A DNA stretch of 64,000 nt from NCBI RefSeq assembly GCF_029814175.1, contig NZ_CP122312.1:1054001-1118000 (forward strand), given 5' to 3'. Positions 17,410-34,438 of the stretch are shown piece after piece (the first letter of the stretch is position 1; every line of letters begins with the position of its first letter). The notes below the pieces were generated by a model, which did no database searches, was not told the origin of the DNA, and worked only from the letters and a program-made list of their open reading frames with translations. The position numbers were made by a program, and so were the translations under genes. This DNA comes from Halospeciosus flavus. GTDB taxonomy: Archaea; Halobacteriota; Halobacteria; Halobacteriales; Halobacteriaceae.

Positions 17410-18461
17410 AATCATTCTCGTAGCTTCTCACACCCCGGATCGTTTCCTCGTTCGTAGTTGGTGATTGCAATGACGAGCCGTAGGCAGAGCGCAACCAACA
17501 CTTCTGTTCGTGCGTGGACGCGGCCTCGGGCGCGGACGTGCCCGAGGCCGCAGTCCTTGACTGCGTCGTTAGTCCGTTCAACTCCTGTCCGGTGATTGTA
17601 CGTCTCGTCTAAGATGGATTGCTTCAGCTGAACGTTCTTGCTGTGTTCGGTGATACGATCTTCGACCCTGTACTTGATGTCTTTCGGGTCGTCAGTGTTT
17701 CGCGGATTGTACGGGGCGACTGGCACGACTCCTGCGGACAGCAGGAGGTCGTGCCAGTCGAGGATGTCGTAGGCGCTGTCTCCGAGCATCCACGTGGGTT
17801 CTTTGACGGCGAGCGCGTCACGCGTGACGCGCATCGCCGTCTCCTGATCCGCTTGTTTGGCTTGTGTGAACTCCGCTGCTATCGGGATTTTTGCACCGGT
17901 TGAGACGATCGTACAGCCGAAGCCGTAGTAGTACTCGTCGGCTGTTGGATCGTAGTTCCACGAGGCAGCGTCGTTGTATTGAATCGCCTCGATGTGAGTC
18001 GAATCGATGGAGTACGTGGAGTCGAGCAGGCCGCGACGGGCGGCCTGCTCGACGAGTCTGTCGAAGACGTCGTCGATAACGTGTTCGAGATCGGTGAGAA
18101 AGCGGTCAATTGTGTCTCTGGATGGCGGTTTGTCGAGTCCGCAATAGTACCAGACAAGCCCGTGCTGGAGTTCTCGCGTGACCGGACGTGTGCCGTAGAT
18201 GTCCTTGTAGTAGCAGTGTAGAAAGCTACGGAAGAGGTCTGGTGGCTGGTGAACTCGTGTTCGCCCCCGCTCGCCGGGGGCGAACACGTCGTATTCCAGT
18301 AGAAACTCGAACTCAAGATGCTCAAACAGCGGTACCGTCTCGGTAGCCGCGACATTCAAGAAGTCGTCTACCGAAGCTATGTCTTGCAGGGTTGCGGTTG
18401 TGCTGGACACACTTTCCGCACCCTGCTGCTTCGTACGTGACGCTTTCTATGACACGCTCTC
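17395..18461 (-). mobile_element. IS5-like insertion sequence, 1067 bp, with perfect 17-bp terminal repeats
   Basis: GAGAGCGTGTCATAGAA at 17395-17411 is exactly inverted at 18445-18461. The element contains one transposase gene. Flanks share only AA, so the duplication is at most 2 bp or has decayed. The left end lies in the last codons of the small gene at 17065. Intact ends and transposase suggest recent arrival. Confidence 0.88.
17412..18410 (-). CDS. IS5-like DDE transposase
   Basis: A 332-residue protein. The catalytic acidic residues are visible as 'YSIDSTHIEA', 'WMLGDSAYDILDW' and a late 'GVERTNDAVKDCGL', the DDE layout of IS4/IS5-type transposases. The stop sits immediately inside the left terminal repeat. 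The protein is full length with no frameshift. Confidence 0.88.
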   Translation of the reverse strand: MSSTTATLQDIASVDDFLNVAATETVPLFEHLEFEFLLEYDVFAPGERGRTRVHQPPDLFRSFLHCYYKDIYGTRPVTRELQHGLVWYYCGLDKPPSRDTIDRFLTDLEHVIDDVFDRLVEQAARRGLLDSTYSIDSTHIEAIQYNDAASWNYDPTADEYYYGFGCTIVSTGAKIPIAAEFTQAKQADQETAMRVTRDALAVKEPTWMLGDSAYDILDWHDLLLSAGVVPVAPYNPRNTDDPKDIKYRVEDRITEHSKNVQLKQSILDETYNHRTGVERTNDAVKDCGLGHVRARGRVHARTEVLVALCLRLVIAITNYERGNDPGCEKLRE

Positions 18462-19320: not shown

Positions 19321-19962
19321 CTAACTTGTTGTATCGGTCGTCGTCTGGCTGTCTGTCGTAGTTGTACTATCTGTTTCGGTCGTTGTGCTGTTCGTAGAGT
19401 CGGTTGTGGTAGTCGTGCTATTCGTAGAGTCGGCCGTCGTCGTATTGTTCGACTCGTCGGTCATGGTAGTCGTACTGTTCGTGGGGTCGGCTGTAGTCGT
19501 CGTATCGTCGGTTGTGGTCGTTGTGCTATTCGTCGAATCTGTCGTGGATGTGTTGTTCGTCGAGTTGGCCGTGGGTGTCGTCTCGTTGCCGTCAGGACTA
19601 CTGGTCGTATTCTGGGTGGACTCGTTTCCGGTGGGCTCGGACGTTTCGTTGGTGTCCGGGCTCGTGGTGACGTTGGTCGAATCGTCCGTGTCCGTCGTAT
19701 TCACCGACTCATTCGTGGCGTCACTGGTGGTCACAGTGTCGTTGGTCGACTCGTTGTCGGCCATTGCCGACACCAGCAGGCTGTGATCACTACTCGGCTG
19801 TTGAATCGTCTGGACGTCGGACGGAGTGGCTGGGATATCCGCGCCTAGTCCGAACTCGACTGTTTCCTGGTCTTGGAGGACAGCCATCGTGACGCCACCA
19901 CCGATACTCGCGACGACGAGTACGCAGAGGACGACGACGACCGAAGCGGAGTTATTCCGCAT
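19321..19962 (-). CDS. Ser/Thr/Asn-rich surface protein, last gene of the SipW operon
   Basis: 213 residues from ATG 19962, which overlaps the end of the signal peptidase gene by 11 bp. A hydrophobic N-terminal segment ('ASVVVVLCVLVVASIGGGV') is followed by a short ordered part and then ~130 residues of low-complexity Thr/Ser/Asn/Asp repeats of the type 'DSTNSTTTTTD', dense in Asn-x-Thr/Ser sequons. It should be a heavily glycosylated, stalk-like exported protein. The DNA of this tail is internally repetitive and prone to length change. Confidence 0.75.
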   Translation of the reverse strand: MRNNSASVVVVLCVLVVASIGGGVTMAVLQDQETVEFGLGADIPATPSDVQTIQQPSSDHSLLVSAMADNESTNDTVTTSDATNESVNTTDTDDSTNVTTSPDTNETSEPTGNESTQNTTSSPDGNETTPTANSTNNTSTTDSTNSTTTTTDDTTTTADPTNSTTTMTDESNNTTTADSTNSTTTTTDSTNSTTTETDSTTTTDSQTTTDTTS

Positions 19963-21040
19963 CAGGGCTCGCCTCCGAGTCGGTCTCTGCCGCTGTGTTT
20001 GCCGTTCTCTCGGCCTCGTCGTACTCGACGTCGGCACAGAAGACGACTGCATCGTCGAAGAGGTACTCGACGTCGTCGTCGCGGACGACCCAGCGATCGT
20101 CCGTGGCAGCCATCGTGTGGAGTGCCGACTGGGAGGCGACGGAGACGATGGGGCGACCGCCGGTGACGTGCCACTCTCCGTCGATCACGTGGGCGGGCTC
20201 GATGCCACCATCTGTCGAGACGGTCGTCTCGACCGTTCCAAACGACTGGAACTTGACCGCGGTGAGGAGGACGAAGAGTCCCACTGCAGCCGCGACGACA
20301 GTAAATGCCCACGTGGTGCGAACGAGGTACGCGATGTAGCCGGCGTAGATGGCGAAGAGACCGAACGCGATACTTCCGAGAGTGAGGTCCGCGCCAGTGA
20401 AGGCGAGTGTATCGTCGGGGACACTGTCTCCAGGCGTGGCATCGTCTTGGGCTTCGGTTATCGTTGAATCAACTGCACCGTTACCGGGCTGGTCGTGGTC
20501 ATGATCGTCGCCGCCGTCGCGTCTGGTCGCGACCCAGTCCCGAAGCTCGAGGACGGCCAGGAGTGCGAACGGAGCGACGACGAGGATGAGAAAGCCCGTC
20601 GTCGTGCCGACGAATTCGACGACGTATCCGATAAAGGGGATCGTGAACACGACGAGACCGATGACCTGGCTTGAGGCGACCGTCCCCGGATCGGCGTCTT
20701 CGTTGGCGTCGCCTTTCGTCTCGAAGACGAGGCCGTTCTCAGTCTGGACGATATCGGTGATGCGGTGAGTAATCGGCACGTCACCGCCGCGGCTGAACGT
20801 GATGACGTCGCCGACTGCGAGTGCTGCTGGATCGGTCACCTCGCTTACGAGGACGACGTCACCAACGCTGATCGCGGGTTCCATACTCCCACTTAAGACG
20901 ACGTAGCTCTGCTGTGCGCCGACCGTCGCGGGGACGGCGTAGACGACGAACGGGAGGACGAGCGCACACACGACGAGGAGGCCCACGACGTTCGTGAGTG
21001 TTCGGCGGTCGAATCGGCTGACAGTGGATTTCGGTCTCAT
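19952..21040 (-). CDS. Type I signal peptidase (SipW/Sec11-like) with a C-terminal extension
   Basis: 362 residues. After an N-terminal helix, 'YVVLSGSMEPAISVGDVVLV' carries the catalytic Ser, and 'VPITHRITDIV' provides the His that replaces the bacterial Lys in archaeal/ER-type enzymes. 'ETKGDANEDADPGTV' fits the conserved Asp-containing box. Further helices (about residues 133-165 and 230-270) anchor a poorly conserved acidic domain. Position inside a cluster of SipW-class substrates makes it the dedicated processing enzyme for them; this is a context inference. Confidence 0.88.
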   Translation of the reverse strand: MRPKSTVSRFDRRTLTNVVGLLVVCALVLPFVVYAVPATVGAQQSYVVLSGSMEPAISVGDVVLVSEVTDPAALAVGDVITFSRGGDVPITHRITDIVQTENGLVFETKGDANEDADPGTVASSQVIGLVVFTIPFIGYVVEFVGTTTGFLILVVAPFALLAVLELRDWVATRRDGGDDHDHDQPGNGAVDSTITEAQDDATPGDSVPDDTLAFTGADLTLGSIAFGLFAIYAGYIAYLVRTTWAFTVVAAAVGLFVLLTAVKFQSFGTVETTVSTDGGIEPAHVIDGEWHVTGGRPIVSVASQSALHTMAATDDRWVVRDDDVEYLFDDAVVFCADVEYDEAERTANTAAETDSEASPDAE

Positions 21041-21088: not shown

Positions 21089-22204
21089 TTACTCGGTGTG
21101 GTACCAGTCTGGAGGCTCGGCACAGCTCCCGTCCGCCGATTGCTGTTGGCAGATCGAGACCGTGATGTGGCTGATGCCGAGATAGTCGTCGAGGCTGTCG
21201 GCCTCCTCGACACCCTGTTTTAGTGGGGCAAACAGGACGCCCGGCGTCGACGCATCCGGTGCGCCAAGCTTGAGGACTTCGTAGGTTGCACGTGCCGTCG
21301 AGCCAACGAGCTCGACGCGACAGAGGCGAGGCGCCGGTGTGTCACCGACTGGATCGAGTGTGAAGGCAACGCCGACAGTCTCGCCGTCGTCTTTCTCGAC
21401 GCTCTCGGTAACGACGAGTTCGTAGTCCGCACTGCCCTCGTTGAAGGCGTAGCGGCCAGGCGGGAGGTAGTTTTCACTGGGTACATTGCTCTCCCGTGGG
21501 TCGACGTCGAGTTTGCCGATCGGAGTACAGCACTCACACGGGGCGGGGCCGGCACAGCCGCCTGTCTCGACAGTCGGGAACGGCGAGGTTCCGTCGTCGT
21601 GTCGACACTGGACGGCGCCGAACGTGAGTGGCCACGTAATCGACTCGGAGCCAGCATACGCATCGTCGAGTGTCCATGACGCGTACAGACAGACCGTTTC
21701 GCCTGGATCGAGACAGTCCTCCTCGAGGGCTGCAGTGAGGTTGATTCCGTTCCGGAGTGTCTCGGCAACCTCGCGGACCGACCCACTGGTTAGGACCGTC
21801 GGCTCGGAGGAGCAATCCCCGACCAACAGGGTCATCGAGAGCTGCTCGGCGAGCAGCGAGCGCTCCGGGACTGGGCAGTCTGCCCGGACCCAGACGACTG
21901 CCGGGTTCGCGTCCGGTGTCGGGAGGGAGACGGTCATCGTCGCCGCATCTTCACGCGTATCTGCATCGAGTGTCCCAAGTGGGAGTGTGACGGTCGTCCC
22001 GTCGGCGACGCCCGTTTTGCCGTGGTGGTCCCACTCGACGACGAGGTCGAACTCACCGCCTCGGAGAGTGGAGTCCAGCACTTCGGTATCACGAAGGTAG
22101 CTAAGCGTGCCACGGCCCAGCGCGGCGCTGCTGAATCCACCCGCGAGACCGACTGCCGACAGCCCGGCGATGATTTGTCGTCGGCTGAGACGGCGATCGC
22201 TCAT
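21089..22204 (-). CDS. SipW-dependent-type secreted protein, divergent
   Basis: 371 residues. The signal 'SRRQIIAGLSAVGLAGGF' is a shortened version of the SipW-class signal, and the mature start 'YLRDTEVLDSTLRGGEFDL' matches the 'YFNDTESF-NN-x-x-AGELDL' block of its neighbours. The mature domain is beta-rich with several cysteines, including a 'CECC' cluster, and a 'TFGAVQCRHDDG' block equivalent to 'F-x-AEQCRHN' in the others. It overlaps the upstream gene in an ATGA junction. Probable surface fibre or matrix protein of the TasA/camelysin type. Confidence 0.78.
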   Translation of the reverse strand: MSDRRLSRRQIIAGLSAVGLAGGFSSAALGRGTLSYLRDTEVLDSTLRGGEFDLVVEWDHHGKTGVADGTTVTLPLGTLDADTREDAATMTVSLPTPDANPAVVWVRADCPVPERSLLAEQLSMTLLVGDCSSEPTVLTSGSVREVAETLRNGINLTAALEEDCLDPGETVCLYASWTLDDAYAGSESITWPLTFGAVQCRHDDGTSPFPTVETGGCAGPAPCECCTPIGKLDVDPRESNVPSENYLPPGRYAFNEGSADYELVVTESVEKDDGETVGVAFTLDPVGDTPAPRLCRVELVGSTARATYEVLKLGAPDASTPGVLFAPLKQGVEEADSLDDYLGISHITVSICQQQSADGSCAEPPDWYHTE

Positions 22205-23046
22205 GTTTGCTCACCGCCGAATGGATTGGCGTCGAATTCACACGTGGCAGCCGCGAAGGAGAGGTCGAAGGCAACGCTGTCACTCTGAATCGTGTTATCG
22301 ACGTCTGCATCGAGCGACCACTCGAGACCGAGACAGAGCGGGTCCTGTCCGAGACAGTCCCGTTCACTTTCCGTGCCCGATGTTGCGAGTGGGACACCAT
22401 TCGCGAGCGCTTCGCCGACAGTTCGGAGCGATCCCTCGACGAGAAGCGGTTCGTCGAGTAGATCGACACCGACATCGAGGTCACGGCGACCGTTACAGGC
22501 ACCGAGTCCGGCGACGCCGCTATCGTACCAGATACGAATCTGCAGTGCATCTACGAGTTCGCCGATATCCGGAGTCGTATCGCCTGCCGTTTGTTCCGGT
22601 TCATTGCGGCCGTTTTCATTCGACTGTGTGGCCATGAGTTGGAGCCATACGGCTGCGGGCGCGGCATTACCGTGGAGACCGACAACGACCGATCCGTGGT
22701 CGCCGGGTAACACATTCCCAAGGTCGATGAGTGGCTGGGGTGGGTCGTCGACGAAGTCGCCGGCTGCAGCAGTTTGGTTCCACGTCGATTGATTCCCGAG
22801 GGCTAACGCCTCGTTCGAGCGGTCGATGCGTTGGCCATTGTACGTCTCGTACCAGGCGACACGAACGAGGCGTTCGCTGCCGGCCGTCGTCTGGGCGTAG
22901 GTGTAGTGTGTATATGCGGGAGCCGTCCCAGCCGACGCATAGCTCGCGCCACTGCCGAGAACTCCGGCGGCCCCGGCGGCGGCGAGGAGTCGGCGGCGAG
23001 TGATCGTCGGCCGGTCTCGATCGCCCGTGTTGTCTGGATTCGTCAT
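22201..23046 (-). CDS. SipW-dependent-type secreted protein, divergent
   Basis: 281 residues. The signal is 'TRRRLLAAAGAAGVLGSGAS' and the mature part has 'GNVLPGDHGSVVVGLHGN', the 'D-x-x-PGD' block of this family, and a final 'FAAATCEFDANPFG'. The first mature block is diverged, without the 'YFNDTES' sequence. Its stop overlaps the next gene by 4 bp, so these two are translationally coupled. The leader contains a tRNA-like element (23183-23260) and a strong hairpin (23119-23157). Confidence 0.75.
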   Translation of the reverse strand: MTNPDNTGDRDRPTITRRRLLAAAGAAGVLGSGASYASAGTAPAYTHYTYAQTTAGSERLVRVAWYETYNGQRIDRSNEALALGNQSTWNQTAAAGDFVDDPPQPLIDLGNVLPGDHGSVVVGLHGNAAPAAVWLQLMATQSNENGRNEPEQTAGDTTPDIGELVDALQIRIWYDSGVAGLGACNGRRDLDVGVDLLDEPLLVEGSLRTVGEALANGVPLATSGTESERDCLGQDPLCLGLEWSLDADVDNTIQSDSVAFDLSFAAATCEFDANPFGGEQT

Positions 23047-23118
23047 TTCGGTCTCGGTGATGTCGATGGTCGTGTGTCTGCAGCTCGGTTGGTCGTTCGT
23101 ACGTGAGACTGCAGTATC

Positions 23119-23157
23119 GGTACTCGCTCCCTATCTTCTGGATAGGGAGTCCGTACC
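23119..23157 (-). promoter_or_regulatory. Long hairpin in the leader of the 22201-23046 gene
   Basis: CTCCCTATC (23127-23135) pairs with GATAGGGAG (23141-23149) around a 5-nt loop, and the outer GGTAC/GTACC (23119-23123/23153-23157) extends the stem. It lies about 75 bp before the start codon and 26 bp from the tRNA-like element. It may be a transcript end or processing barrier; there is no T-run to make it a simple terminator. Confidence 0.6.
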
Positions 23158-23182
23158 AGTCCTCGTGGCACGTACAGACGAT

Positions 23183-23260
23183 GATCCACCGGCGGAGTCG
23201 AACCACCGAACGCGCGGTGGCTGGGGAAGGCCACCTGACCGCGTCGCACCGGCCTGGACC
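23183..23260 (-). promoter_or_regulatory. tRNA-like minihelix element 1
   Basis: Read on the minus strand, GGTCCAG pairs with GTGGATC (6 of 7, one G-U), and the T-stem CGGTGG/CCGCCG closes the loop TTCGACT. The linker begins GCCGGTGC and contains an additional 6-bp hairpin (GGTGGC/GCCACC). It lies between two substrate genes of the SipW operon. Confidence 0.65.
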
Positions 23261-23301
23261 CCGTGTTCGAACTCGGTTCTCGAGGGACTGCTGTCACGGG
23301 C

Positions 23302-24513
23302 TCACTCTGCAGCAGGGTTCTCGTTGTGCCGGCACTGTTCGGCTTCGAACGTCAGGTCAAAGCTCGCGATATCGGTCTGGACTTCGTTGCCGACGCTGGC
23401 CGGCAATGCCCACTCGAACCCGACACAGTGCGTCCCCGGCTGGAAGCAGTGCGTCTCTTCGACGGTTTCGCAGGTCCAGAATTCGACGTGGCTCACTTCT
23501 TGGCGAACGCGGTTTGGCCGTCCGCTGATCGGTCCGAGGAGTGTCGTCGTGTCGACACACTCGCCGAAGATGTATTCCTCCGTCGCGGAACCCGATTTGA
23601 CGAGGGCTTTGCAGATCCCGACGCCATCAGTGAGGACTTCGACGTCGAAGCCCACGACCTCGCCATCCTCCTCTTGGAAGTTCGAGAGTTGGAGTTGGGG
23701 CTCGACTCCCGTTCCGTCGTCAAAGGTGTAGATGTCTCCGTTAGCAGTCCCATCCGAGCCATCTGCGAGTTCAACCGTCTGGAACTGCTCTCCTTCGAGG
23801 TCTTCGAGTCGGCCGAGTTTCGTACAGGCTTCTCCACTGCCTCCCGTCTCCGAGACGAGTGGCACACCCGCACAGGCAAACTCCGAGAGGCCCGCGAGCG
23901 TTCCCTCGTAGATGACGTGCTCTCCTTCGTCGTAGAGGTTGTCACAGTCCGGGTCGCGCCAGACGCGGACGTCGAGGAGGTTCGCGAGTTCAGCCATCTC
24001 GGGAGAGGTATCGACGTCGCTCTCGGGTTCGTTGACGCCGTTCTCATCTTCGGTGACGCAGGCTTTCATCCGGATGTAGGAGGGGTTCCCACAGAGATGG
24101 AGACTCGTCGTCACCTCTCCGGAGTCGCCTGGCTTGACGTCGTCGAGGTCGAAGACCGGAATCGCCTCGCCGTTCACGAGGCCGTCGGTCTCACACGTAA
24201 TCTCGTCGCGCTCGACGGCGCCCCAGTCGTTGGGTGCCTCTCCGAGGAGGTAGGTACCTGTCGAGAGCTCTTCGGCATCCGGGTAGGTCGACTGGATATC
24301 GCTCAGCCGTCCCGGGCCACCGGCGTAGGTCGCTCGGTAGTCGAGTTTGAGGTCGAGTTCCCCTGCCTGTAGGGTGTTGTTGTCGAACGATTCGGTGTCG
24401 TTGAAGTATGCACTCGTCCCGAGGCCTGCTCCCGCGGAGGCGAGGCCGACGGCGCCGAGCCCACCGAGGATTTGGCGGCGGGTCAGTGCGTGGTAGCGAT
24501 CGTTGGTGGTCAT
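23302..24513 (-). CDS. SipW-dependent-type secreted protein (camelysin/TasA-like)
   Basis: 403 residues from ATG 24513. The signal 'TRRQILGGLGAVGLASAGAG' is twin-arginine and leads to 'LGTSAYFNDTESFDNN', the SipW-class cleavage region. The mature part begins 'LQAGELDLKLDYRATYAGG' and has 'VKPGDSGEVTTSLHLCGNP', a conserved 'VRVWRDPDCDNLYDEGE' and the terminal 'FEAEQCRHNENP'. The signal and domain order are shared with the next four genes upstream. Likely an exported filament or matrix subunit. Confidence 0.85.
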   Translation of the reverse strand: MTTNDRYHALTRRQILGGLGAVGLASAGAGLGTSAYFNDTESFDNNTLQAGELDLKLDYRATYAGGPGRLSDIQSTYPDAEELSTGTYLLGEAPNDWGAVERDEITCETDGLVNGEAIPVFDLDDVKPGDSGEVTTSLHLCGNPSYIRMKACVTEDENGVNEPESDVDTSPEMAELANLLDVRVWRDPDCDNLYDEGEHVIYEGTLAGLSEFACAGVPLVSETGGSGEACTKLGRLEDLEGEQFQTVELADGSDGTANGDIYTFDDGTGVEPQLQLSNFQEEDGEVVGFDVEVLTDGVGICKALVKSGSATEEYIFGECVDTTTLLGPISGRPNRVRQEVSHVEFWTCETVEETHCFQPGTHCVGFEWALPASVGNEVQTDIASFDLTFEAEQCRHNENPAAE

Positions 24514-24533
24514 GATGGTCCCCTTCTGGGGAT

Positions 24534-24578
24534 GATTCACCGACGGAATCGAACCGCCGTTTTGCACCAGCGTGAATC
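24534..24578 (-). promoter_or_regulatory. tRNA-like minihelix element 2
   Basis: On the minus strand GATTCAC and GTGAATC pair perfectly (7 bp). The T-stem CGGCGG/CCGTCG has one G-U pair and closes the loop TTCGATT. The 12-nt linker is GCTGGTGCAAAA. It is followed at once by a CCCC-AGAA-GGGG hairpin that ends 6 nt before the ATG at 24513. Confidence 0.72.
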
Positions 24579-24637
24579 GGGTCGCTGTCGACAGGTACCA
24601 CGGGGGTGGCACTGCTGTCGATCCCGCCTAGAGCGAA

Positions 24638-25552
24638 TCAGAACGGATTCGCGTTCACCTCGTCGTGACGCGACTGTCCGGCCGCGAAATCGATTTCGAA
24701 GACGAGGGAGTCCGTCTGAACGTTGTTCTCGATCGAGGTCGGGAGTTCGAACTCGAAGGCGAGGCGGGCGTTGTTCGGTCCCGGTGTCGTTGGCGCGGCC
24801 TCGAAGACGTCGTCGAACGTGTTTGGATCACGAAAGAGTGGGACACCTCCCGCGAGGTCGATGCCGAGGGCTTTGGCTGCGCTTCCGAACGCCACATCGC
24901 CACGACTTCCGAGAAAACCGACTCCCGACACGTCGATGTCCGGGGCTGGCCCGCTATTGAGGTCGTACGTGGCGCTATACGCACCATCGCTGTGAGAGAT
25001 ATGGACTTCGAGTTCGCTCCCGAGTTCGCCTCGCCCATCGGGAAGCCCTTCGTCGAGGAAATCGCCGTCGAGACCGCGACCGGTGAAGTTGGCGTCTGTC
25101 GCAGGTCCCGGTGAGGTGTCGATTTGCTCTTCAGGCTCAGTATAGCCGTTCTCCAGGTCGTCGCGGAGCACACTCCGCATCCAGAGTCGCGATGGGTTGT
25201 TGTCGAGGACGAACCCGATCTCGACGAGTGCTTTGTCTCCAGGTGCGAGGTCGTCGAGAGCCATAATGATCGACGCCGTTCCGTCAGCGACCCCCTCGTG
25301 ACGCTGATAGAGGCCGACACCGTCGGAGACGATATCGTCAGGGTCGAGTCCGAGAATATCGCGGTCGTTGTACTGGCCACGCCAGTCGAGTCGGAGATCA
25401 AGCTCTCCGGCCTGGATGGAGTTGTTGTCGAAGGACTCGGTATCGTTGAAGTAGGCACTCGTCCCGAGGCCAGCGCCCGCCGACGCGAGGCCGACAGCGC
25501 CGAGGCCACCGAGTAACTTGCGCCGCGAGAGGGGGTATCGTTGGTGCGTCAT
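24638..25552 (-). CDS. SipW-dependent-type secreted protein (camelysin/TasA-like)
   Basis: 304 residues from ATG 25552. Signal 'SRRKLLGGLGAVGLASAGAG', then 'LGTSAYFNDTESFDNN' and 'IQAGELDLRLDWRGQYN'. It has 'LDDLAPGDKALVEIGFVLDNNP', where the family 'GD' block follows a Pro, and the terminal 'FAAGQSRHDEVNANPF', with Ser replacing the usual Cys. It lacks the insert domains of the next two genes. Closest neighbour by layout is the protein at 28962-29846. Confidence 0.85.
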   Translation of the reverse strand: MTHQRYPLSRRKLLGGLGAVGLASAGAGLGTSAYFNDTESFDNNSIQAGELDLRLDWRGQYNDRDILGLDPDDIVSDGVGLYQRHEGVADGTASIIMALDDLAPGDKALVEIGFVLDNNPSRLWMRSVLRDDLENGYTEPEEQIDTSPGPATDANFTGRGLDGDFLDEGLPDGRGELGSELEVHISHSDGAYSATYDLNSGPAPDIDVSGVGFLGSRGDVAFGSAAKALGIDLAGGVPLFRDPNTFDDVFEAAPTTPGPNNARLAFEFELPTSIENNVQTDSLVFEIDFAAGQSRHDEVNANPF

Positions 25553-25570
25553 GGTCGTCCCCGAGGGGAA

Positions 25571-25641
25571 GACCCGCGGATGGAGTCGAACCATCCAACA
25601 CACAGGGGTGGGAGCCAGGGTGCGTCGCGCCGGCGCGGGTC
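25571..25641 (-). promoter_or_regulatory. tRNA-like minihelix element 3 (tRNA-length)
   Basis: On the minus strand GACCCGC/GCGGGTC pair perfectly, and GGATGG/CCATCC close the loop TTCGACT. The linker is 38 nt and begins GCCGGCGC, so the whole element is 71 nt, about the length of a tRNA. It has no recognisable D arm or anticodon arm. A small CCC-CTCG-GGG hairpin follows, ending just before the ATG at 25552. Confidence 0.72.
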
Positions 25642-25698
25642 ACAGGTGGGGATCGGCGGCCGATTGCCGATCGCTGGGCTGTTTGGTCGTGGAGTCGA

Positions 25699-27279
25699 TC
25701 AGGCGAACGGCGTCTTCTCGGCCGGGTTCGGATTGTGACGGCACTGTTCGCTGTAGAGGTTCAGATCGAAGACCACACGGTCCGTCTGGGCCTCGTTGCC
25801 GACGTCTTCGGGAAGCCACCAGAGCATCGCGAGACACTGCGTCGTCGAGTTGGGGTAGCAGTCGATCGCGTCCGAGGACCGGTTGGCGTCGAGGAGGACA
25901 CCACTTGGGCCGCCGATCCCCGACTCACTCAACACATCACGGAGCGACCCTTCTGCGATGATGGTCTCACCGCCACCGATATCCTGAATCTCGGCGGCGA
26001 GTGTGCTGTCCGGATTCGGGCCGGATACACTCCCGGACCCAGTGATGGCGTACTCGATTTCGTCGTCGATGTCGTCGACGAAGATGAACTCGTGGTCGCC
26101 TTGGAGGCCCTCGATAGCCGAGAGGATGGACTCCGAAGCGTAGGACTCCAAGCCGATGACGACGTACTTGTCGACCGAGCCACCGTTGACAGTCAGGTTA
26201 CTCGTCGCCACCGAGAGGAACTGCGACTCGGTGATGTTGACGCCGTTCGTGATCAACACGAGAACATGTTGACTATCCTCGGGGCATTCTTCGAGTGCAG
26301 TTGCGCCGGCGTTGATTGCCTCGGCGACGTCTGCGCCACCGCCGGTGAGGAGGTCTTGGTCGAGGATGTCGCCAAGCCCATTGACGACTGCCGTCTCGTC
26401 GTCGGTCGGTGTGAATCGCGTATCCGCAATGCTCTCGAAGAGCGTCAGCCCCACCGAGGTCTGGTTGAGGACGCCGTCGTCGTCCGTGTCGAGGTCGTGA
26501 ACCAGATTCTCGAGGGCAGCGACGAGGAGGTCGTCCTTGTAGGCGACGGGTTCGGAATCATCGGCTTCGTTGTTCCCCATCGAATCAGTGTTGTCGACGA
26601 CGAGTTGGACACAGGCTGGCCCAGTGTCGTGTCTGTTGTCACAGTCGTCGTCGTACCAGACCTTCGCCTGGATGGCTTCGGCGAGTTCGCCACTATCAGG
26701 CGCGCCCATCTCGTCGCTTACGGTGACGTTTTCAGCCTCTGCTTCGGGCTCGTTGATGCCGTTGTCGAGGTCGTCTTGGAGCGATCCTCCGAACCAGAGG
26801 TAGCCCGGATTGTCGAAGAGGTGCATGCTGATCGTGATCTCACCCTTGTCGCCGGGCTTGACGTCATCGAGTTCGATAACCGGCATCTCGACGTCGTCCG
26901 GCAGGTCCGCGAACTGGTCGCGGAACATGTCTTCGACTGTCTGTCGCTCGCTTTCGGAGAGTTTCGAGAGGTCGGTCTCGCCGTACTCGTCGTCGGCGAT
27001 CTCCGTCCGCGTGCGGATGAAATCTTGCACGGCATCCCCGTCCGTATCGGGGTATGCGTTGACCGGCATCCAAGACTCGCTGGGACCGTAGTACTCCTGT
27101 TGCCAGTCGACCTTGAGGTCAAGTGCACCCGCGGTCAGAGTGTTGTTGTCGAACGATTCGGTATCGTTGAAGTATGCACTCGTCCCTAAGCCCGCTCCCG
27201 CAGAGGCGAGGCCGACGGCACCGAGCCCACCGAGGAGTCGGCGCCGCGAGAGGTTGTAGAGGTTCTTGTCATCGGTCAT
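25699..27279 (-). CDS. SipW-dependent-type secreted protein with inserted vWA domain (A)
   Basis: 526 residues from ATG 27279. Signal and mature start are the family type ('SRRRLLGGLGAVGLASAGAG', 'YFNDTESFDNN'). A von Willebrand A domain (about residues 210-410) is inserted after 'KVWYDDDCDNRHDTG', exactly where its relatives continue 'CDN-x-Y-x'. Its MIDAS motif is D-N-T-D-S ('VVDNTDSMGNN'), a Thr variant of DxSxS. The C-terminus returns to the family fold ('GSLRDVLSE', 'YSEQCRHNPNPAE'). A metal-dependent adhesion or assembly role on the surface is likely. Confidence 0.85.
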   Translation of the reverse strand: MTDDKNLYNLSRRRLLGGLGAVGLASAGAGLGTSAYFNDTESFDNNTLTAGALDLKVDWQQEYYGPSESWMPVNAYPDTDGDAVQDFIRTRTEIADDEYGETDLSKLSESERQTVEDMFRDQFADLPDDVEMPVIELDDVKPGDKGEITISMHLFDNPGYLWFGGSLQDDLDNGINEPEAEAENVTVSDEMGAPDSGELAEAIQAKVWYDDDCDNRHDTGPACVQLVVDNTDSMGNNEADDSEPVAYKDDLLVAALENLVHDLDTDDDGVLNQTSVGLTLFESIADTRFTPTDDETAVVNGLGDILDQDLLTGGGADVAEAINAGATALEECPEDSQHVLVLITNGVNITESQFLSVATSNLTVNGGSVDKYVVIGLESYASESILSAIEGLQGDHEFIFVDDIDDEIEYAITGSGSVSGPNPDSTLAAEIQDIGGGETIIAEGSLRDVLSESGIGGPSGVLLDANRSSDAIDCYPNSTTQCLAMLWWLPEDVGNEAQTDRVVFDLNLYSEQCRHNPNPAEKTPFA

Positions 27280-27302
27280 GGTTTGTGGTTCCCTTGCGGG
27301 AG

Positions 27303-27347
27303 GACCCGTCGACGGAGTCGAACCGTCGAAGTGCACCGGCACGGGTC
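27303..27347 (-). promoter_or_regulatory. tRNA-like minihelix element 4
   Basis: On the minus strand GACCCGT/ACGGGTC pair perfectly, and CGACGG/CCGTCG close the loop TTCGACT. The linker GCCGGTGCACTT is 12 nt, as in element 2. It is followed by CCC-GCAA-GGG, a GNRA-type tetraloop hairpin, before the ATG at 27279. Confidence 0.72.
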
Positions 27348-27369
27348 GGTAACGAAGCTGAGAATCGAC

Positions 27370-28815
27370 TCAGTTCGTCGTCGTAGTCGTGTTGTTCGTT
27401 GGGGGACTCGGAGCGTTGTGGCGGGACTGTTCGGCGGTGAATCCGACATCGAATTCGGCGCCGTCGGTCTGGACTTCGTTTCCAACGTCAGTGGGGAGTT
27501 CCCACTCGAAGCCGACACACTGGGTTACGTTCCCCGGATATGGCTGGCGGTCTTCCTCACTGCGGTTGCCATCGAGTTCGATACCTTCCGCGAGCAAAGC
27601 CATGACATCGGCTAGCGAGCCCTGCGCGATGATGGTCTCGCCGGCGAGCACGACTTGTGCGATTTCGCCGTAGATGAGGTCGAGGTCAGCGGGATCGGGT
27701 GCGACGAAGGCATCGTCAGGTGAAGAGGCGATGTCCTCTAGGAGGGAGACGTCTGCTCCCGTCCCAAGGGCAATCGTGAAGATGCGGATGCCCTGCGCCT
27801 TCGCGGCGTCGGCCGCAGTGGTGGCGCTCGTTGCGCTGGATTGACCGTCGCTGAGGAGAATCATGACTTTGGAGGCCCCGGCAGTCGCGTTTGCTCCATT
27901 CATGAGCTCGTCCGCGGCGGCATCGATACCCGTGTTGATGGCGGTCCCACCACCGGCAGTGTACGCATCGATTGCGTCCTTGACAGCCTGGTAGTCTGTC
28001 GTGAGTTCCTGGTCAACGGATGCGCTACTAGAGAAGGAAATCGCGGCTGCCTCATCCGGACTGGAAAGGTTGTCGACGAATCCCGTCGCCGCCGACTTCA
28101 GTGCACTCAGGTTCGACCCACCCATGGATCCGGAAACGTCGCTCACGAGGGCGACTTCCAGTTCCTGTTGCTGCCCGGTTCCTGTTGGTTCGTAGACGTT
28201 GTCACAGTCCTCGTCGTACCAGACAGTGACGTTCATCTCGTCCGCGAGCTCGCCCATTCCTGCGCCAGGGGTGCCACCACTCTCGTCGACACCCATCTCG
28301 GGTTCGCTCTGTCCGTTCTCGTCGTTCGCGGTGAGACCACCCGTCATCGAGACCCAGGCAGGGTTGTCACAGATGTGGAGGCTGATCGTCGTCTCACCGG
28401 AATCACCGGGCTTCACGTCAGTAAGCGTGAAGATGGGGACTTCGCTCCCATTCACGAGAATGTCGTCGGCCTCTGGCGAGCAGTAGTCACCCTCCATGAC
28501 GATGTCTTCCCACTGCGCTTCCTGTTCGGGTGTGGGCACCTGATCGAGGAGGTAGACACCATCGCCGAGGTCTGCTGCGTCAGGGTAGCCCATCGCCTGA
28601 ATATCTTCAAGGCGACCCGGTCCACCCGCGTAGGTGGCCTTGTAGTCGAGCTTCAGGTCGAGTTCGCCGGCCTGGAGTGTGTTGTTCTGGAACGACTCTG
28701 TGTCGTTGAAGTATGCGCTCGTCCCGAGTCCGGCCCCTGCGGAGGCAAGGCCGACGGCACCGAGGCCGCCGAGCAGCTTGCGCCGTGAGAGGTTGTAGAG
28801 TTGTTTGTCGCTCAT
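27370..28815 (-). CDS. SipW-dependent-type secreted protein with inserted vWA domain (B)
   Basis: About 481 residues from ATG 28815 (an ATG at 28824 is also in frame). Signal 'SRRKLLGGLGAVGLASAGAG' and 'YFNDTESFQNN'. A vWA domain (about residues 215-390) follows 'VWYDEDCDNVYEPTG'; its MIDAS is canonical D-V-S-G-S ('LVSDVSGSMGGS'). The family fold resumes at 'GETIIAQGSLADVM' and ends 'FTAEQSRHNAPSP' with a Thr/Asn tail. The vWA domains of this and the adjacent gene differ more than the flanking parts, so they may have been acquired or diverged separately. Confidence 0.86.
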   Translation of the reverse strand: MSDKQLYNLSRRKLLGGLGAVGLASAGAGLGTSAYFNDTESFQNNTLQAGELDLKLDYKATYAGGPGRLEDIQAMGYPDAADLGDGVYLLDQVPTPEQEAQWEDIVMEGDYCSPEADDILVNGSEVPIFTLTDVKPGDSGETTISLHICDNPAWVSMTGGLTANDENGQSEPEMGVDESGGTPGAGMGELADEMNVTVWYDEDCDNVYEPTGTGQQQELEVALVSDVSGSMGGSNLSALKSAATGFVDNLSSPDEAAAISFSSSASVDQELTTDYQAVKDAIDAYTAGGGTAINTGIDAAADELMNGANATAGASKVMILLSDGQSSATSATTAADAAKAQGIRIFTIALGTGADVSLLEDIASSPDDAFVAPDPADLDLIYGEIAQVVLAGETIIAQGSLADVMALLAEGIELDGNRSEEDRQPYPGNVTQCVGFEWELPTDVGNEVQTDGAEFDVGFTAEQSRHNAPSPPTNNTTTTTN

Positions 28816-28838
28816 TGTGTTCATCCCCCAGAGGGGAA

Positions 28839-28888
28839 GGCCCGGTGACGGAGTCGAACCGTCACGCCGCGGAACACCGGTCCGGGCC
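28839..28888 (-). promoter_or_regulatory. tRNA-like minihelix element 5
   Basis: On the minus strand GGCCCGG/CCGGGCC pair perfectly, and TGACGG/CCGTCA close the loop TTCGACT. The linker (17 nt) begins ACCGGTGT. A CCCC-TCT-GGGG hairpin follows and ends shortly before the ATG at 28815. Confidence 0.72.
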
Positions 28889-28961
28889 GGACAGCAGACG
28901 CAATCGGACGCGTGTTGGCGTCCGGGTATCGAGGGTCAGTCGCGTGGCTCCAGGGACGGAT

Positions 28962-29846
28962 CTAGGGCGATGGCGACGTCGTGTTGTACGGGTTAGCAGT
29001 GCCGTCGTTGTGGCGCGCCTGGATGGCCGTGAACTCGACGTCGAACATGAACGAGTCCGTCTGGACGTTGTTGCCGACCGTGGTCGGCAGCTCGAACTCG
29101 ATAGCGATACACGGCGTCGCGTGCCCATCAGAACCGACTGCGGTCGCGGCGAAGGGATCGGTCATGCTGGTCGACGGGTCGCTGTCGAGGGCGACACCAC
29201 TCGCGAGGTCGGTCCCGAAGACGGTCTCAGCGTCGCCCATTGCGACGTCGCCTCGTGAAGTACTACCCGCGTAGGAGACGGCATTCCCAGCATCAGCGGC
29301 AAACGACCCTCCATCGTTGTAGGATCCATCACTGTAGGAGACGTACACCTGCAGTTCGTCGTCGAGTTCACCGGCCCCACTCGCGTTTCCGGGATCGTCA
29401 TAATCACCGGTCGCGTTGGTCGTGGGTTCGGGTTCAGGGTAGCCGTTCTCAGCGTCGTCGTGGTGGTTCGTCTTCATCCAGACGTACGCAGGGTTGTCCA
29501 CGGACGCGAGGCAGATCTCGACGACACCCTTGTCGCCGGGCTTGACGTCGTCGAGGAGGACGAAGAATCCGGAGTCGCCGTTCTGCTCGACGTTCATGTG
29601 GCCCTGGTAGAGCCCGGAATCGTCAGCAGCCGAGTCGCCACCCACGCCGGCGGCGTTGTACTGACCGGACCACTCGAGCTGGAGGTCGAGCTGGCCAGCC
29701 TCGAGCGTGTTGTTGTCGAACGATTCGGTGTCGTTGAAGTAGGCAGTCGTCCCGAGCCCGGCACCCGCGGAGGCGAGGCCGACGGCGCCGAGGCCGCCCA
29801 GCAGCTTGCGTCGCGAGAGGTTGTAGAGTTGTTTGTCGTCGGTCAT
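28962..29846 (-). CDS. SipW-dependent-type secreted protein (camelysin/TasA-like), first gene of the operon
   Basis: 294 residues from ATG 29846. Signal 'SRRKLLGGLGAVGLASAGAG', then 'LGTTAYFNDTESFDNN' and 'LEAGQLDLQLEWSGQYN'. It has 'LDDVKPGDKGVVEICLASVDNP', and ends 'FTAIQARHNDGTANPYN' with a short Thr/Ser/Pro tail. It heads the minus-strand operon. Its leader, unlike the next five, has no T-arm-like element, only a GC-rich hairpin (CCCGC/GCGGG near 29870). Confidence 0.84.
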   Translation of the reverse strand: MTDDKQLYNLSRRKLLGGLGAVGLASAGAGLGTTAYFNDTESFDNNTLEAGQLDLQLEWSGQYNAAGVGGDSAADDSGLYQGHMNVEQNGDSGFFVLLDDVKPGDKGVVEICLASVDNPAYVWMKTNHHDDAENGYPEPEPTTNATGDYDDPGNASGAGELDDELQVYVSYSDGSYNDGGSFAADAGNAVSYAGSTSRGDVAMGDAETVFGTDLASGVALDSDPSTSMTDPFAATAVGSDGHATPCIAIEFELPTTVGNNVQTDSFMFDVEFTAIQARHNDGTANPYNTTSPSP

Positions 29847-30142
29847 GGTTTGTTGGTCCCGGCCCACCCGCGGCGGGCAGTGGGATACCTCACCCATTAT
29901 CCGGATGGGTCGTAGCTATGGTCTGGCTGACACGATCCGTGACCGACCCTAATGTAACGAAAGGTCACCCTCAGGACCGCGAAAGGTCGGGCTTAGCGAC
30001 CCATATGGTGGGCCTATCCTCCGGCTCGGCCAGTCTAGGGCGCCCCTATCGTGGCCCATTCGGACGGCTATGGACTACCTATCGGTAGCTAGCTAGACCA
30101 TACCTACGACTGCAGGTGTCGTTCGGATGAGTAGAGGGGGAC
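29847..30142. promoter_or_regulatory. Divergent promoter region between the SipW operon and the DUF7344-like regulator
   Basis: No gene seen. Short repeats are dense: two copies of CGAAAGGTC (29958-30000), the hairpin CCCAT-ATGGG (29891-29909), and palindromes around CTACCTATCGGTAG and GCTAGCTAG (30073-30096). The layout suggests regulator binding sites shared by the two divergent units. Confidence 0.45.
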
Positions 30143-30667
30143 ATGCACTTCCAGCGACCACACATTCCGGAGGGGGACGCATTTCGGCTATTGAGCAACG
30201 AGCGCCGTCGCCGATCGCTTGAGTACCTCGTCGAACGCGAGCACGCGACGGTTCGTGAAATCGCGGACGTCGTCGCGGCGGCGGAGTTCGGTTCGTCAGC
30301 GCCGCCGGATTCCGTCCGAACCGCCGTGTACGTCTCACTTCGCCAGAACCACCTCCCGTCGCTCGTCGACGCCGGCGTCATCGAGTTCGATACGGAGACG
30401 AATCAGGTCCGTGTCCTTGACCGTGCGCGCGGCGTCACGATGTACCTCGAGCTCGTCACCCGCTACGGCATCACGTGGGGCGAGTTCTACCAGTACCTCG
30501 GGACGGTCGGCTTCCTCGTCGTTCTGGGATCGCTGCTCGTCTTCCCGATTGTGTCGCTGATCTCGCCCCTTGCCTGGGCGACGATCTTCCTCGGTGTGTT
30601 CGCCGTGATGAGCGCCTACCAACTGTGGACCGATCACTGGAGTCTCCGGCGCCGCCTCCTTCCGTAA
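30143..30667 (+). CDS. DUF7344-like winged helix fused to two membrane helices
   Basis: 174 residues. The N-terminal ~95 residues are a winged helix: 'AFRLLSNERRRRSLEYLVE', then 'TVREIADVVAA', 'VYVSLRQNHLPSLVDAGVIEFD' and a wing. The C-terminus has two hydrophobic helices ('VGFLVVLGSLLVFPIVSLIS', 'WATIFLGVFAVMSAYQLW'). Membrane-tethered haloarchaeal regulators with this layout often neighbour SipW-class clusters. It diverges from the SipW operon and is a candidate sensor-regulator of it. Confidence 0.78.
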   Translation: MHFQRPHIPEGDAFRLLSNERRRRSLEYLVEREHATVREIADVVAAAEFGSSAPPDSVRTAVYVSLRQNHLPSLVDAGVIEFDTETNQVRVLDRARGVTMYLELVTRYGITWGEFYQYLGTVGFLVVLGSLLVFPIVSLISPLAWATIFLGVFAVMSAYQLWTDHWSLRRRLLP

Positions 30668-33035: not shown

Positions 33036-34438
33036 CATCCGTCTTTAGTTAGGAGACGAACCGCGTGACAGTGGCGGCTTATCGAGGCTACTTTTCGGAA
33101 GGAATGAGGAGGTGTCGAGTGTGCACAACGAAACCTCCTCATCACGGATTATGCGTCGGCTCACTACACTGTTTCCCTCCGAGTTCCTCGAAGAGCACGC
33201 CGAGGAACTCGGCGTGGTCGAACGCGACCGCAAGCTCCAGATTCCCGTCTTCGTCTGGGCATTCGTGTTCGGCTTCGCCGCAGGCGAACGCCGAACACTC
33301 GCAGGGTTTCGACGCAGCTACAACTCCACAGCTGACGAGCCGATCTCACCGGGTGGGTTCTATCAGCGGTTGACGCCGACGCTCGCGGAGTACTTCCGCG
33401 ACCTCGTCGAGCACGGTCTCGACGAGGTCGCTGTTCCCGACACTGTTGACGTTGACATCGACCGATTCAGTGATGTAATGATCGCTGATGGAACGGTGTT
33501 GCGGTTACACGAGTTTCTCGCTGATCAGTTCGAAGCCCGCCACGAGGAGCAGGCTGGAGCGAAGCTCCACCTGCTCCACAATGCCACTGAACAGACGATT
33601 GAACGGATCGACGTTACCGACGAGAAAGCACACGACAGCACGCTGTTCAAGACAGGGTCGTGGCTTGAGAACCGCCTCGTATTGTTCGACCTCGCGTACT
33701 TCAAGTACCGACGGTTTGCGCGGATCGACGAGAACGGCGGCTCCTTCGTGAGCCGGCTGAAACAGAACGCGAATCCGGTGATTACGGATGAATTACGGGA
33801 ATGGCGCGGCCGCGCCATTCCCTTGGAGGGCAAGCAACTCCGTGATGTGCTCGACGATCTCGACCGGACGTACATCGATGTGGAAGTCGAAGTCGAGTTC
33901 AAGCGCGGGCCGTACAACGGGACGCGGTCGCTGGATACGAAGCGGTTCCGCGTCGTCGGCGTCCGCGACGAGGACGCCGACGACTACCATCTATACGTGA
34001 CAAATCTGTCGCGAGAGGAGTTCTTTCCGGCGGATTTAGCGCAGATCTACCGGTGTCGGTGGGAAGTGGAGTTGCTGTTCCGTGAGTTGAAGACGCAGTA
34101 CGACCTGGACGAGTTCGACACGAGCAACGAGCACGTGGTGAAGATCTTGCTGTACGCAGCGTTGCTGTCACTGCTTGTGAGCCGTGATCTGTTGGATCTG
34201 GTCACCGAGCAGGCGGATGATGAGCTCGTGTTTCCCCCGGAACGCTGGGCGGCGACCTTCCGGTCGCACGCCCAGCTCATCCTCCACGAACTCGGTGAGC
34301 ACCTCGGTTATTCGCCACCGCCGCTGTTGGAGCGGCTGATCGAGGACGCACAGAAGATCCACAAGCAACGACCGATCTTACAAGAGACGCTCGCTACCGC
34401 TACACAACCGAGGTGTGAGTCTTAACTAAAGACGAATG
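33036..34438 (+). mobile_element. ISH8-type IS4-family insertion sequence, 1403 bp
   Basis: Terminal repeats are CAT(C/T)CGTCTTTAGTTA (33036-33051 and 34423-34438, one mismatch). A 10-bp target duplication, GGAGCCAGCC, flanks it at 33026-33035 and 34439-34448. Length and duplication fit ISH8. The intact transposase and perfect duplication point to a recent insertion. Confidence 0.93.
33151..34425 (+). CDS. ISH8-family (IS4) transposase
   Basis: About 424 residues from ATG 33151 (a GTG 39 bp upstream is in frame). 'MRRLTTLFPSEFLEEHAEELG' is the family N-terminus. Catalytic parts are 'DVMIADGTVLRLHE', 'LVLFDLAYFKYRRF' and the YREK-like 'IYRCRWEVELLFRELKTQYDL', the DDE signature of IS4. Full length and uninterrupted. 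Confidence 0.93.
   Translation: MRRLTTLFPSEFLEEHAEELGVVERDRKLQIPVFVWAFVFGFAAGERRTLAGFRRSYNSTADEPISPGGFYQRLTPTLAEYFRDLVEHGLDEVAVPDTVDVDIDRFSDVMIADGTVLRLHEFLADQFEARHEEQAGAKLHLLHNATEQTIERIDVTDEKAHDSTLFKTGSWLENRLVLFDLAYFKYRRFARIDENGGSFVSRLKQNANPVITDELREWRGRAIPLEGKQLRDVLDDLDRTYIDVEVEVEFKRGPYNGTRSLDTKRFRVVGVRDEDADDYHLYVTNLSREEFFPADLAQIYRCRWEVELLFRELKTQYDLDEFDTSNEHVVKILLYAALLSLLVSRDLLDLVTEQADDELVFPPERWAATFRSHAQLILHELGEHLGYSPPPLLERLIEDAQKIHKQRPILQETLATATQPRCES

Follow-up and report, generated by a model that had tools for sequence, protein, structure and literature searches.

A tandem array of exported-protein genes in the haloarchaeon Halospeciosus flavus carries five structures that resemble the acceptor and T-arm portion of a transfer RNA (tRNA), and structures of the same family, maintained as sense-strand RNA, occur at gene junctions in related genomes. 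The stretch of DNA analysed, hereafter the window, comprises 64,000 nucleotides (nt) of H. flavus contig NZ_CP122312.1, positions 1,054,001–1,118,000 (GCF_029814175.1). We read the five structures as t-elements, which would be cis-acting mimics of a tRNA within a messenger RNA (mRNA), built from an acceptor stem and a T-arm joined by a segment with a D-loop-like GG and, in some copies, a further arm, and at which the enzyme tRNase Z would make new mRNA 5' ends. We give this reading a probability of about three in four. The better-supported half of it is the 3' cut, by which tRNase Z would set the 5' end of the next message.

The five elements (E1–E5, Table 1) lie on the minus strand exactly where an earlier note, made from the sequence alone, had placed them, and alignment bears out the structure that it described. 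Each has a 7-base-pair (bp) acceptor-like stem (6 of 7 pairs in E5), a linker with the motif CYGGYG, and a T-stem of 6 bp whose loop reads TTCGACT or TTCGATT, and the GG of the linker is invariant across all five. The array consists of five genes for SipW-type exported proteins, and all four gaps between these genes, together with the gap 3' of the fifth, hold an element. The note's description of one element per SipW gap is thus accurate for four elements, the fifth lying between the last SipW-type gene and an exported-protein-like gene without a SipW match. No sixth element was found in the window, the leader of gene 1 included, by either of two covariance models: a first built solely from the five window copies (E ≤ 0.03) and a second built from 62 elements (E ≤ 0.01). 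The note also went too far in stating that none has an anticodon arm, since the linkers of E3 and E5 can form an extra hairpin at the place of that arm, and the long linkers (n = 62) fold better than shuffled ones (mean −13.1 versus −7.7 kcal/mol). Because the long linkers fold well, elements with such linkers look like a tRNA whose D-arm is vestigial and which carries an arm that varies in size.

The pairing within the five copies covaries, as the same note had argued. Standard pairs make up 98.5% of the 65 pair cells in the five-copy alignment, compared with 85.0% in shuffles, and 8 of the 13 pairs have changed on both sides, compared with 3.7 in shuffles, of which 2 in 500 reach 8. When the partners are slid by 1–3 columns, pairing falls to 24–52%.

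Known RNA families did not account for the elements. ARAGORN called no tRNA and no transfer-messenger RNA (tmRNA) in the window, and within window positions 22000–30500 nothing reached the gathering score of an Rfam family (E ≤ 5), the tRNA family being unmatched there; seven element-bearing loci of relatives likewise gave no Rfam match. The sole sense-strand Rfam match to a window element was to tRNA-Sec (RF01852) on E1, at 19.7 bits (E = 4.3) against a gathering score of 47. We rejected the identity of tRNA gene because ARAGORN called no cloverleaf with an anticodon arm and the Rfam tRNA family was unmatched, and that of tmRNA because ARAGORN called none. Linkers of 5–69 nt without a three-nt rhythm speak against a small reading frame running through the gaps.

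Further copies were found beside SipW-type genes elsewhere, and covariation held in larger alignments (below), so that the idea of the earlier note passed two of the three checks by which it could have failed. We fetched 28 SipW-type loci by protein similarity alone, blind to the element. These came from Halorubrum, Halobellus, Halobium, Halolamina, Halobacterium, Haloglomus, Saliphagus and two metagenome-assembled genomes (one labelled nanohaloarchaeal), and are not all independent, since over half are from Halorubrum. The first model detected elements at E < 0.05 in 23 of the 28. All 37 matches at that threshold lay on the strand of the SipW gene, with the first opposite-strand match appearing at E = 0.66, and those inspected lay between tandem genes or 5' of the first gene. 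In 13 Halorubrum loci (L054–L061, L064–L066, L070, L075) the first SipW gap holds, as judged by eye, a variant with an acceptor-like stem, a T-stem and the loop TTCGCGA; neither model reported this variant at the thresholds used, and its gaps were scored as empty.

Across the host order, the second model matched at E ≤ 0.001 in 110 of 293 genomes, representing 45 of 87 genera, with at most nine matches per genome; this count takes in 5S ribosomal RNA (rRNA) elements (single matches in G004, G010 and G014) and some genomes that gave training copies. A phylum-wide draw with stricter filters gave matches in 17 of 196 genomes, all of the host order; with those filters, and with the number of genomes from outside the order not given, this does not prove absence elsewhere. 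Viral contigs gave no match to an exact pattern of the consensus T-arm plus acceptor. Within the H. flavus genome, the first model recovered the five copies at E ≤ 3.7e-10 and nothing more below E = 0.0996. None of the 11 weak matches from that value upwards was counted: one (L021) is a tRNA-Val, and four (L014, L015, L017 and L018) are without a tRNA call, three of them (L014, L017 and L018) also without an Rfam match, and were taken as chance; of the remaining six, five repeat the scores and lengths of the inspected ones. The weak matches recur threefold, in an arrangement by which H. flavus contig C3 (87 kb) resembles an inverted dimer with a further match at the end of contig C1 near 3150000–3172000; a plasmid repeat in inverted orientation or an artefact of assembly may lie behind it.

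Covariation persisted in larger alignments, with double changes at 10 of 13 pairs among 61 distinct rows and likewise at 10 of 13 among 143 distinct rows, the latter with 127 double-change cells against 34.8 in shuffles. The five-copy covariation is the cleaner evidence, because the larger alignments were fitted to the model. Relatedness was controlled only by shuffles, slid partners and the comparison of copies within one locus. In this last comparison, 43 loci with at least two copies gave 1768 inner-pair cells that are paired in the first copy; 132 of these cells show compensated double changes, 139 show single changes that are still paired, and 53 have changed and are broken. The non-Watson–Crick pairs indicate which strand is folded. 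Among the inner 11 pairs of 196 distinct elements (a set of 226 minus 11 with a T-loop displaced by an indel or off consensus, minus 19 duplicates), we counted 2037 Watson–Crick pairs, 82 G-U, 8 A-C and 29 other combinations, and 140 distinct elements outside the training loci of the second model gave 49 G-U versus 4 A-C (those with the standard loop). Because G-U exceeds A-C, the sense RNA is the folding strand; a role at the DNA level or in antisense would not favour G-U. The scarcity of A-C may come in part from the pair-scoring model used to pick elements.

In our judgement, the strongest argument for processing is that the first model, made from mRNA elements, returned an experimentally cut element from another setting. 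Run over 40 related genomes, it returned, unasked, stretches ending at the start of 5S rRNA, with the 5S identity established by Rfam for L039 and L041–L044 and by sequence for L046, L049 and L052. According to published work, the haloarchaeal 5S t-element is cut by tRNase Z, making the 5' end of 5S rRNA (PMC4326828, PMC3296008, PMC7521656), and in engineered transcripts with paired t-elements the cuts of RNase P and tRNase Z free a CRISPR RNA (crRNA) in vivo. A like element precedes each of the three H. flavus 5S genes, found there by T-loop pattern and position. In a survey of 30 5S loci, 24 had a readable t-element, 2 a T-arm only and 3 no T-loop, and 1 lacked the 5S motif; some of the 24 are perhaps mis-parsed. 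A GG falls within the first 8 linker nt in 19 of the 24 readable elements, and a TTAAGG-type 5S start follows about 13 nt after the T-loop in most readings.

The conserved parts of the mRNA elements correspond to those that form the elbow of a tRNA. The acceptor-like stem is continuous with a T-arm that closes a canonical T-loop, and this loop is TTCGACT or TTCGATT in 186 of the 196 consensus-fitting distinct elements, a figure conditional on the consensus since off-consensus rows were left out. In tRNA, the contact between D-loop and T-loop involves G18 and G19. A GG stands exactly at linker positions 11–12 in 146 of 196 elements, against a background of about 0.10 per position across linkers, and within the first 8 linker nt in 191 of 196, where about 53% is expected. 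A mini D-arm of two pairs closing a YGGY loop is possible in 67 of the 145 elements that have GG at positions 11–12 (48.8 in shuffles, maximum 62 of 2000), a result that is suggestive only, with relatedness uncontrolled.

The placement of the wider set was examined with 226 elements in 123 loci, or 215 distinct elements after removal of loci fetched twice under two names. This set covers 150 matches to the second model listed in the order-wide search, further matches in the same stretches, and other fetched loci. Genes in relatives were called by a simple amino-acid-composition caller trained on the window genes, so that some starts are miscalled: three lie at a distance of −7, and a few GTG starts fall within hairpins. 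The next gene lies on the element's strand for 211 of the 215 elements (1 opposite, 3 at an end) and the previous gene for 205, and a gene overlap of more than 10 nt was seen once. The same elements occur in tandem genes with a GTGAFTSV motif near the N terminus (L087, L088, L089, L091, L092, L096, L125 and L139); we refer to these as GAFTSV genes, after a motif defined in this analysis that is no database family. Neighbours are SipW or GAFTSV genes on both sides for 144 of 215 elements, upstream only for 38, downstream only for 17 and on neither side for 16.

Placement was also counted per gap, for gaps of 40–500 nt; the leader elements of L062, L067 and L079 are absent from the divergent class. 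In the protein-selected loci, the second model matched in 32 of 76 SipW–SipW gaps and 2 of 7 gaps from another gene to a SipW gene, and in none of 6 SipW–other, 94 other–other and 91 divergent or convergent gaps. In the element-selected loci, chosen for having an element, matches fell in 97 of 134 SipW–SipW gaps, 17 of 19 GAFTSV–GAFTSV gaps, 27 of 42 SipW–other gaps, 11 of 115 other–other gaps and 4 of 120 divergent or convergent gaps, with a few smaller classes besides.

The predicted cut site follows from the position used in tRNA. The tRNase Z site of a tRNA lies 13 nt 3' of the T-loop (5 plus 7 pairs plus the discriminator), and the position 13 nt after the T-loop is the 3' end of the acceptor in the mRNA elements. 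Just beyond this point, four of the five window elements have a short hairpin with a C-rich and a G-rich side between element and start codon, which the earlier note had missed; E5 has no short hairpin directly 3' and stands 136 nt from the next start codon. Among 134 elements whose next gene starts 10–60 nt from the acceptor 3' end, a hairpin starts 0–4 nt after the acceptor in 113, compared with a mean of 15.6 and a maximum of 24 in 30 rounds of mononucleotide shuffling; by class of the next gene, the hairpin is present in 94 of 99 SipW, 12 of 19 GAFTSV and 7 of 16 other cases. The distance from acceptor to start codon has its mode at 21–22 nt, and the predicted leaders of window genes 2–5 are 23 nt (14 nt from the upstream ATG), 23, 18 and 20 nt; the true start of gene 2 may be the second ATG, at 28815. 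In 12 further distinct cases, five of them apparently one gene family, the called start codon lies 0–4 nt after the acceptor 3' end. By the definition used for Haloferax, leaderless transcripts are those with a leader of 0–5 nt, and 72% of the protein-coding transcripts of Haloferax volcanii were reported to be leaderless. A start codon 0–4 nt from the predicted cut would therefore make these messages leaderless by the Haloferax definition.

We propose the following mechanism. Genes of the array would be co-transcribed, and the sense transcript would fold each element into a tRNA-like elbow, which tRNase Z, as the probable enzyme, would recognise and cut after the 13th nt 3' of the T-loop, the distance seen in tRNA and about that of the 5S t-element. 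The downstream message would then start with a short hairpin and a leader of about 20 nt, the form that is usual and predicted for the window, or 0–4 nt before its start codon, as a leaderless message. A second cut, by RNase P 5' of the element, may define the 3' end of the upstream message, a step that is less certain. The outcome would be that a single long transcript of the tandem exported-protein genes is split into individual messages, each with a defined 5' end, with a possible effect on their expression.

The earlier note had suggested that RNase P and tRNase Z cut the polycistronic mRNA into gene-length pieces. The return of the 5S t-element, a known substrate, by the first model is in our analysis the best available support for processing of this kind. 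Cutting at both ends, in the form that the note gave it, is not supported. In 5 of 215 distinct elements (L087, L095, L132, L181 and L183), the stop codon of the upstream gene extends over acceptor bases 1 and 2 and would be truncated by RNase P cutting at its canonical site, which is evidence against an obligatory role of RNase P. Of the 215, 10 lie in the leader of a first gene, with the upstream gene on the other strand, where separation of genes is needless. Because of these leaders and the doubt over RNase P, setting the 5' end of the next message describes the proposed function better than gene separation does.

Beyond these overlaps and leaders, several observations weigh against the t-element reading. 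The folding energies of the gaps are ordinary (z = −0.17, −0.99, −1.41, −2.58 and +0.98), and in gaps one and five the tRNA-like fold is not the one of lowest energy. Folding energy thus gives no support, and we rely instead on covariation and on the relatives; it is the covariation and the other loci that exclude chance. The two outermost pairs form in just 127 and 132 of 196 elements. The first model lists none of H. flavus's own 5S t-elements up to E = 10, and 6 of the 30 5S loci are without a readable t-element, while the 24 readings may include mis-parsed ones. Hairpins are missing, by the score used, from 21 of the 134 tails. Among the protein-selected loci, 44 of 76 SipW–SipW gaps are without a match to the second model, and 10 of 123 loci with such matches lack SipW and GAFTSV genes within the stretch examined.

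A rival reading is a structure that stays uncut in the 5' leader and governs how the next gene is translated or how stable its message is, perhaps acting with the short hairpin to expose or hide the start region. The near-fixed distance to the next start codon and the elements in first-gene leaders would both be expected of such a leader. However, the conserved parts are determinants of the tRNA elbow, T-loop and GG, as in the 5S t-element that is cut, and in the 12 cases with only 0–4 nt between helix and start codon, initiation should be blocked if the helix stayed intact. We consider an uncut leader unlikely. The same elbow determinants form the face by which tRNA is recognised, so that a tRNA-modifying enzyme, a tRNA-binding regulator or a similar protein could bind the mimic and regulate the operon without cleavage; the neighbouring genes, however, look unrelated to tRNA metabolism, and more than one type of operon carries the element, which makes regulation by binding alone distinctly improbable.

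Two further explanations find little room. The first approximately 190 nt of the five SipW-type genes are repeated DNA, with 69–80% identity to a reference copy, and a 37-nt stretch across the T-arm also recurs, as would be the case if the elements had no function and had simply been carried along when the genes duplicated in tandem, or were left over from tRNA genes or integration sites. This is very improbable in view of the compensatory changes among copies within a locus, the preponderance of G-U over A-C and the presence in 45 of 87 genera. Internal transcription terminators or attenuators would account for the stable hairpin that every one of the five gaps has, but archaeal intrinsic terminators need a T-run, and the tail, mostly C at positions +3 to +6 (58–84%), has none after the stem, so we reject an intrinsic terminator and give the wider possibility almost no weight.

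Table 1. Elements, adjoining hairpins and genes of the exported-protein array, in window coordinates.
Feature	Position	Strand	Details
tRNA-like element E1	28839..28888	-	acceptor GGCCCGG/CCGGGCC; linker ACCGGTGT...; T-arm TGACGG-TTCGACT-CCGTCA; training copy of the first model, 69 bits
tRNA-like element E2	27303..27347	-	acceptor GACCCGT/ACGGGTC
tRNA-like element E3	25571..25641	-	acceptor GACCCGC/GCGGGTC; additional hairpin within linker
tRNA-like element E4	24534..24578	-	acceptor GATTCAC/GTGAATC
tRNA-like element E5	23183..23260	-	acceptor GGTCCAG/GTGGATC, one mismatch and one G-U; additional linker hairpin possible
Short hairpin directly 3' of E1	28825..28838	-	at the predicted 5' end of the downstream mRNA
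Short hairpin 3' of E2	27290..27301	-	TCCC-GCAA-GGGA; start codon at 27279
Short hairpin 3' of E3	25558..25569	-	TCCC-CTCG-GGGA; start codon at 25552
Short hairpin 3' of E4	24519..24532	-	TCCCC-AGAA-GGGGA; start codon at 24513
SipW-type exported protein gene 1	28962..29846	-	TIGR04088 cognate_SipW, E = 6.7e-8; no element detected in leader
SipW-type gene 2, VWA domain	27370..28824	-	TIGR04088, 8.7e-8; PF00092, 1.4e-26
SipW-type gene 3, VWA-like domain	25699..27279	-	TIGR04088, 1.5e-7; PF13519, 7.8e-9
SipW-type gene 4	24638..25552	-	TIGR04088, 1.8e-9
SipW-type gene 5	23302..24513	-	TIGR04088, 3.1e-8
Exported-protein-like gene 3' of E5	22201..23046	-	no family match above curated cut-off
Signal peptidase I, SipW/archaeal type, downstream in the same orientation	19952..21040	-	TIGR02228, E = 8.3e-30, above cut-off; NF046067, 1.1e-32, below cut-off

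The SipW-type signal peptide (TIGR04088) is found in five consecutive genes of the window, the first approximately 55 residues of which are mostly near-identical (Table 1). The array is followed by two genes without a family match above cut-off, the pair next after the E5 gap, which overlap each other, and then by a signal peptidase of the SipW/archaeal type. A DUF7344 (PF24035) gene at 30143–30667 points away from the operon, and similar-looking genes stand, by eye, beside several of the related loci. Reading frames that look transposase-like by eye flank the operon region at 17412–18410 and 33112–34425. Near some GAFTSV loci a signal-peptidase-like gene was seen by eye; the one GAFTSV protein scanned (L139) had no Pfam match, and a gene neighbouring the GAFTSV array in L087 matches DUF1102. 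The ten loci without a SipW or GAFTSV gene (L093, L095, L097, L132, L142, L158, L168, L180, L183 and L203) include some clusters of membrane or signal-peptide proteins, possibly mobile, and in L183 a start codon stands immediately 3' of an element.

Whether the elements amount to a general haloarchaeal punctuation of mRNA is, in our estimate, evenly balanced. In such a system, tRNA mimics at gene junctions would enable tRNase Z to divide polycistronic transcripts into single-gene messages, leaderless or capped by a hairpin, chiefly in tandem exported-protein arrays accompanied by a signal peptidase of their own and also in a small number of further operons. Hölzle et al. 2008 reportedly described the Haloferax volcanii 5S rRNA t-element as a tRNase Z substrate, and in the literature consulted the element before 5S rRNA is the only natural archaeal t-element described. 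Among the literature matches listed (titles and abstract starts, with subscription literature sparsely covered), none reports mRNA-borne tRNA-like elements in archaea; a 2012 paper on Haloferax volcanii (Biochimie 94:940), which by its title concerns tRNA-like elements in a haloarchaeal genome, may overlap with the present work. If the t-element reading is correct, a covarying family at mRNA junctions would make tRNase Z an enzyme of message maturation across a whole archaeal order, and would explain leaderless 5' ends for inner genes of operons. The predicted sites are precise enough for comparison with published maps of processing sites, which exist for Halobacterium salinarum and Haloferax volcanii (PMC8303175, PMC10134880). 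The elements could also serve as natural parts for splitting polycistronic constructs in haloarchaea, as the 5S element has been used for crRNAs.

Among known systems, the closest likeness is to the 5S t-element of Haloferax volcanii, which also consists of an acceptor-like stem and a T-arm with no anticodon arm required, has a linker start resembling YNGG and a T-loop that is mostly TTCGAYT, and releases its RNA just after the acceptor. The two differ in position, the 5S element lying 5' of 5S rRNA whereas the mRNA elements sit between cistrons, and in the acceptor, which, as read in this analysis, usually has 5–6 bp in the 5S t-element compared with 7 bp, two of them weak outer pairs, in the mRNA element. 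Punctuation of messages by tRNA is a textbook feature of mitochondria, and the t-elements of plant mitochondria belong to the same comparison, tRNA or tRNA-like folds between genes there marking the cuts of RNase P and tRNase Z; the mitochondrial marks, however, are mostly working tRNAs, whereas those described here are anticodon-free mimics in a free-living archaeon. The tRNA-like domain of tmRNA likewise combines an acceptor and a T-arm with a D-loop that lacks a real D-stem, but the present elements lie inside mRNA gaps and none is called by ARAGORN. With tRNA-Sec they share a stack of 13 pairs formed by acceptor and T-stem, and unlike tRNA-Sec they carry no anticodon.

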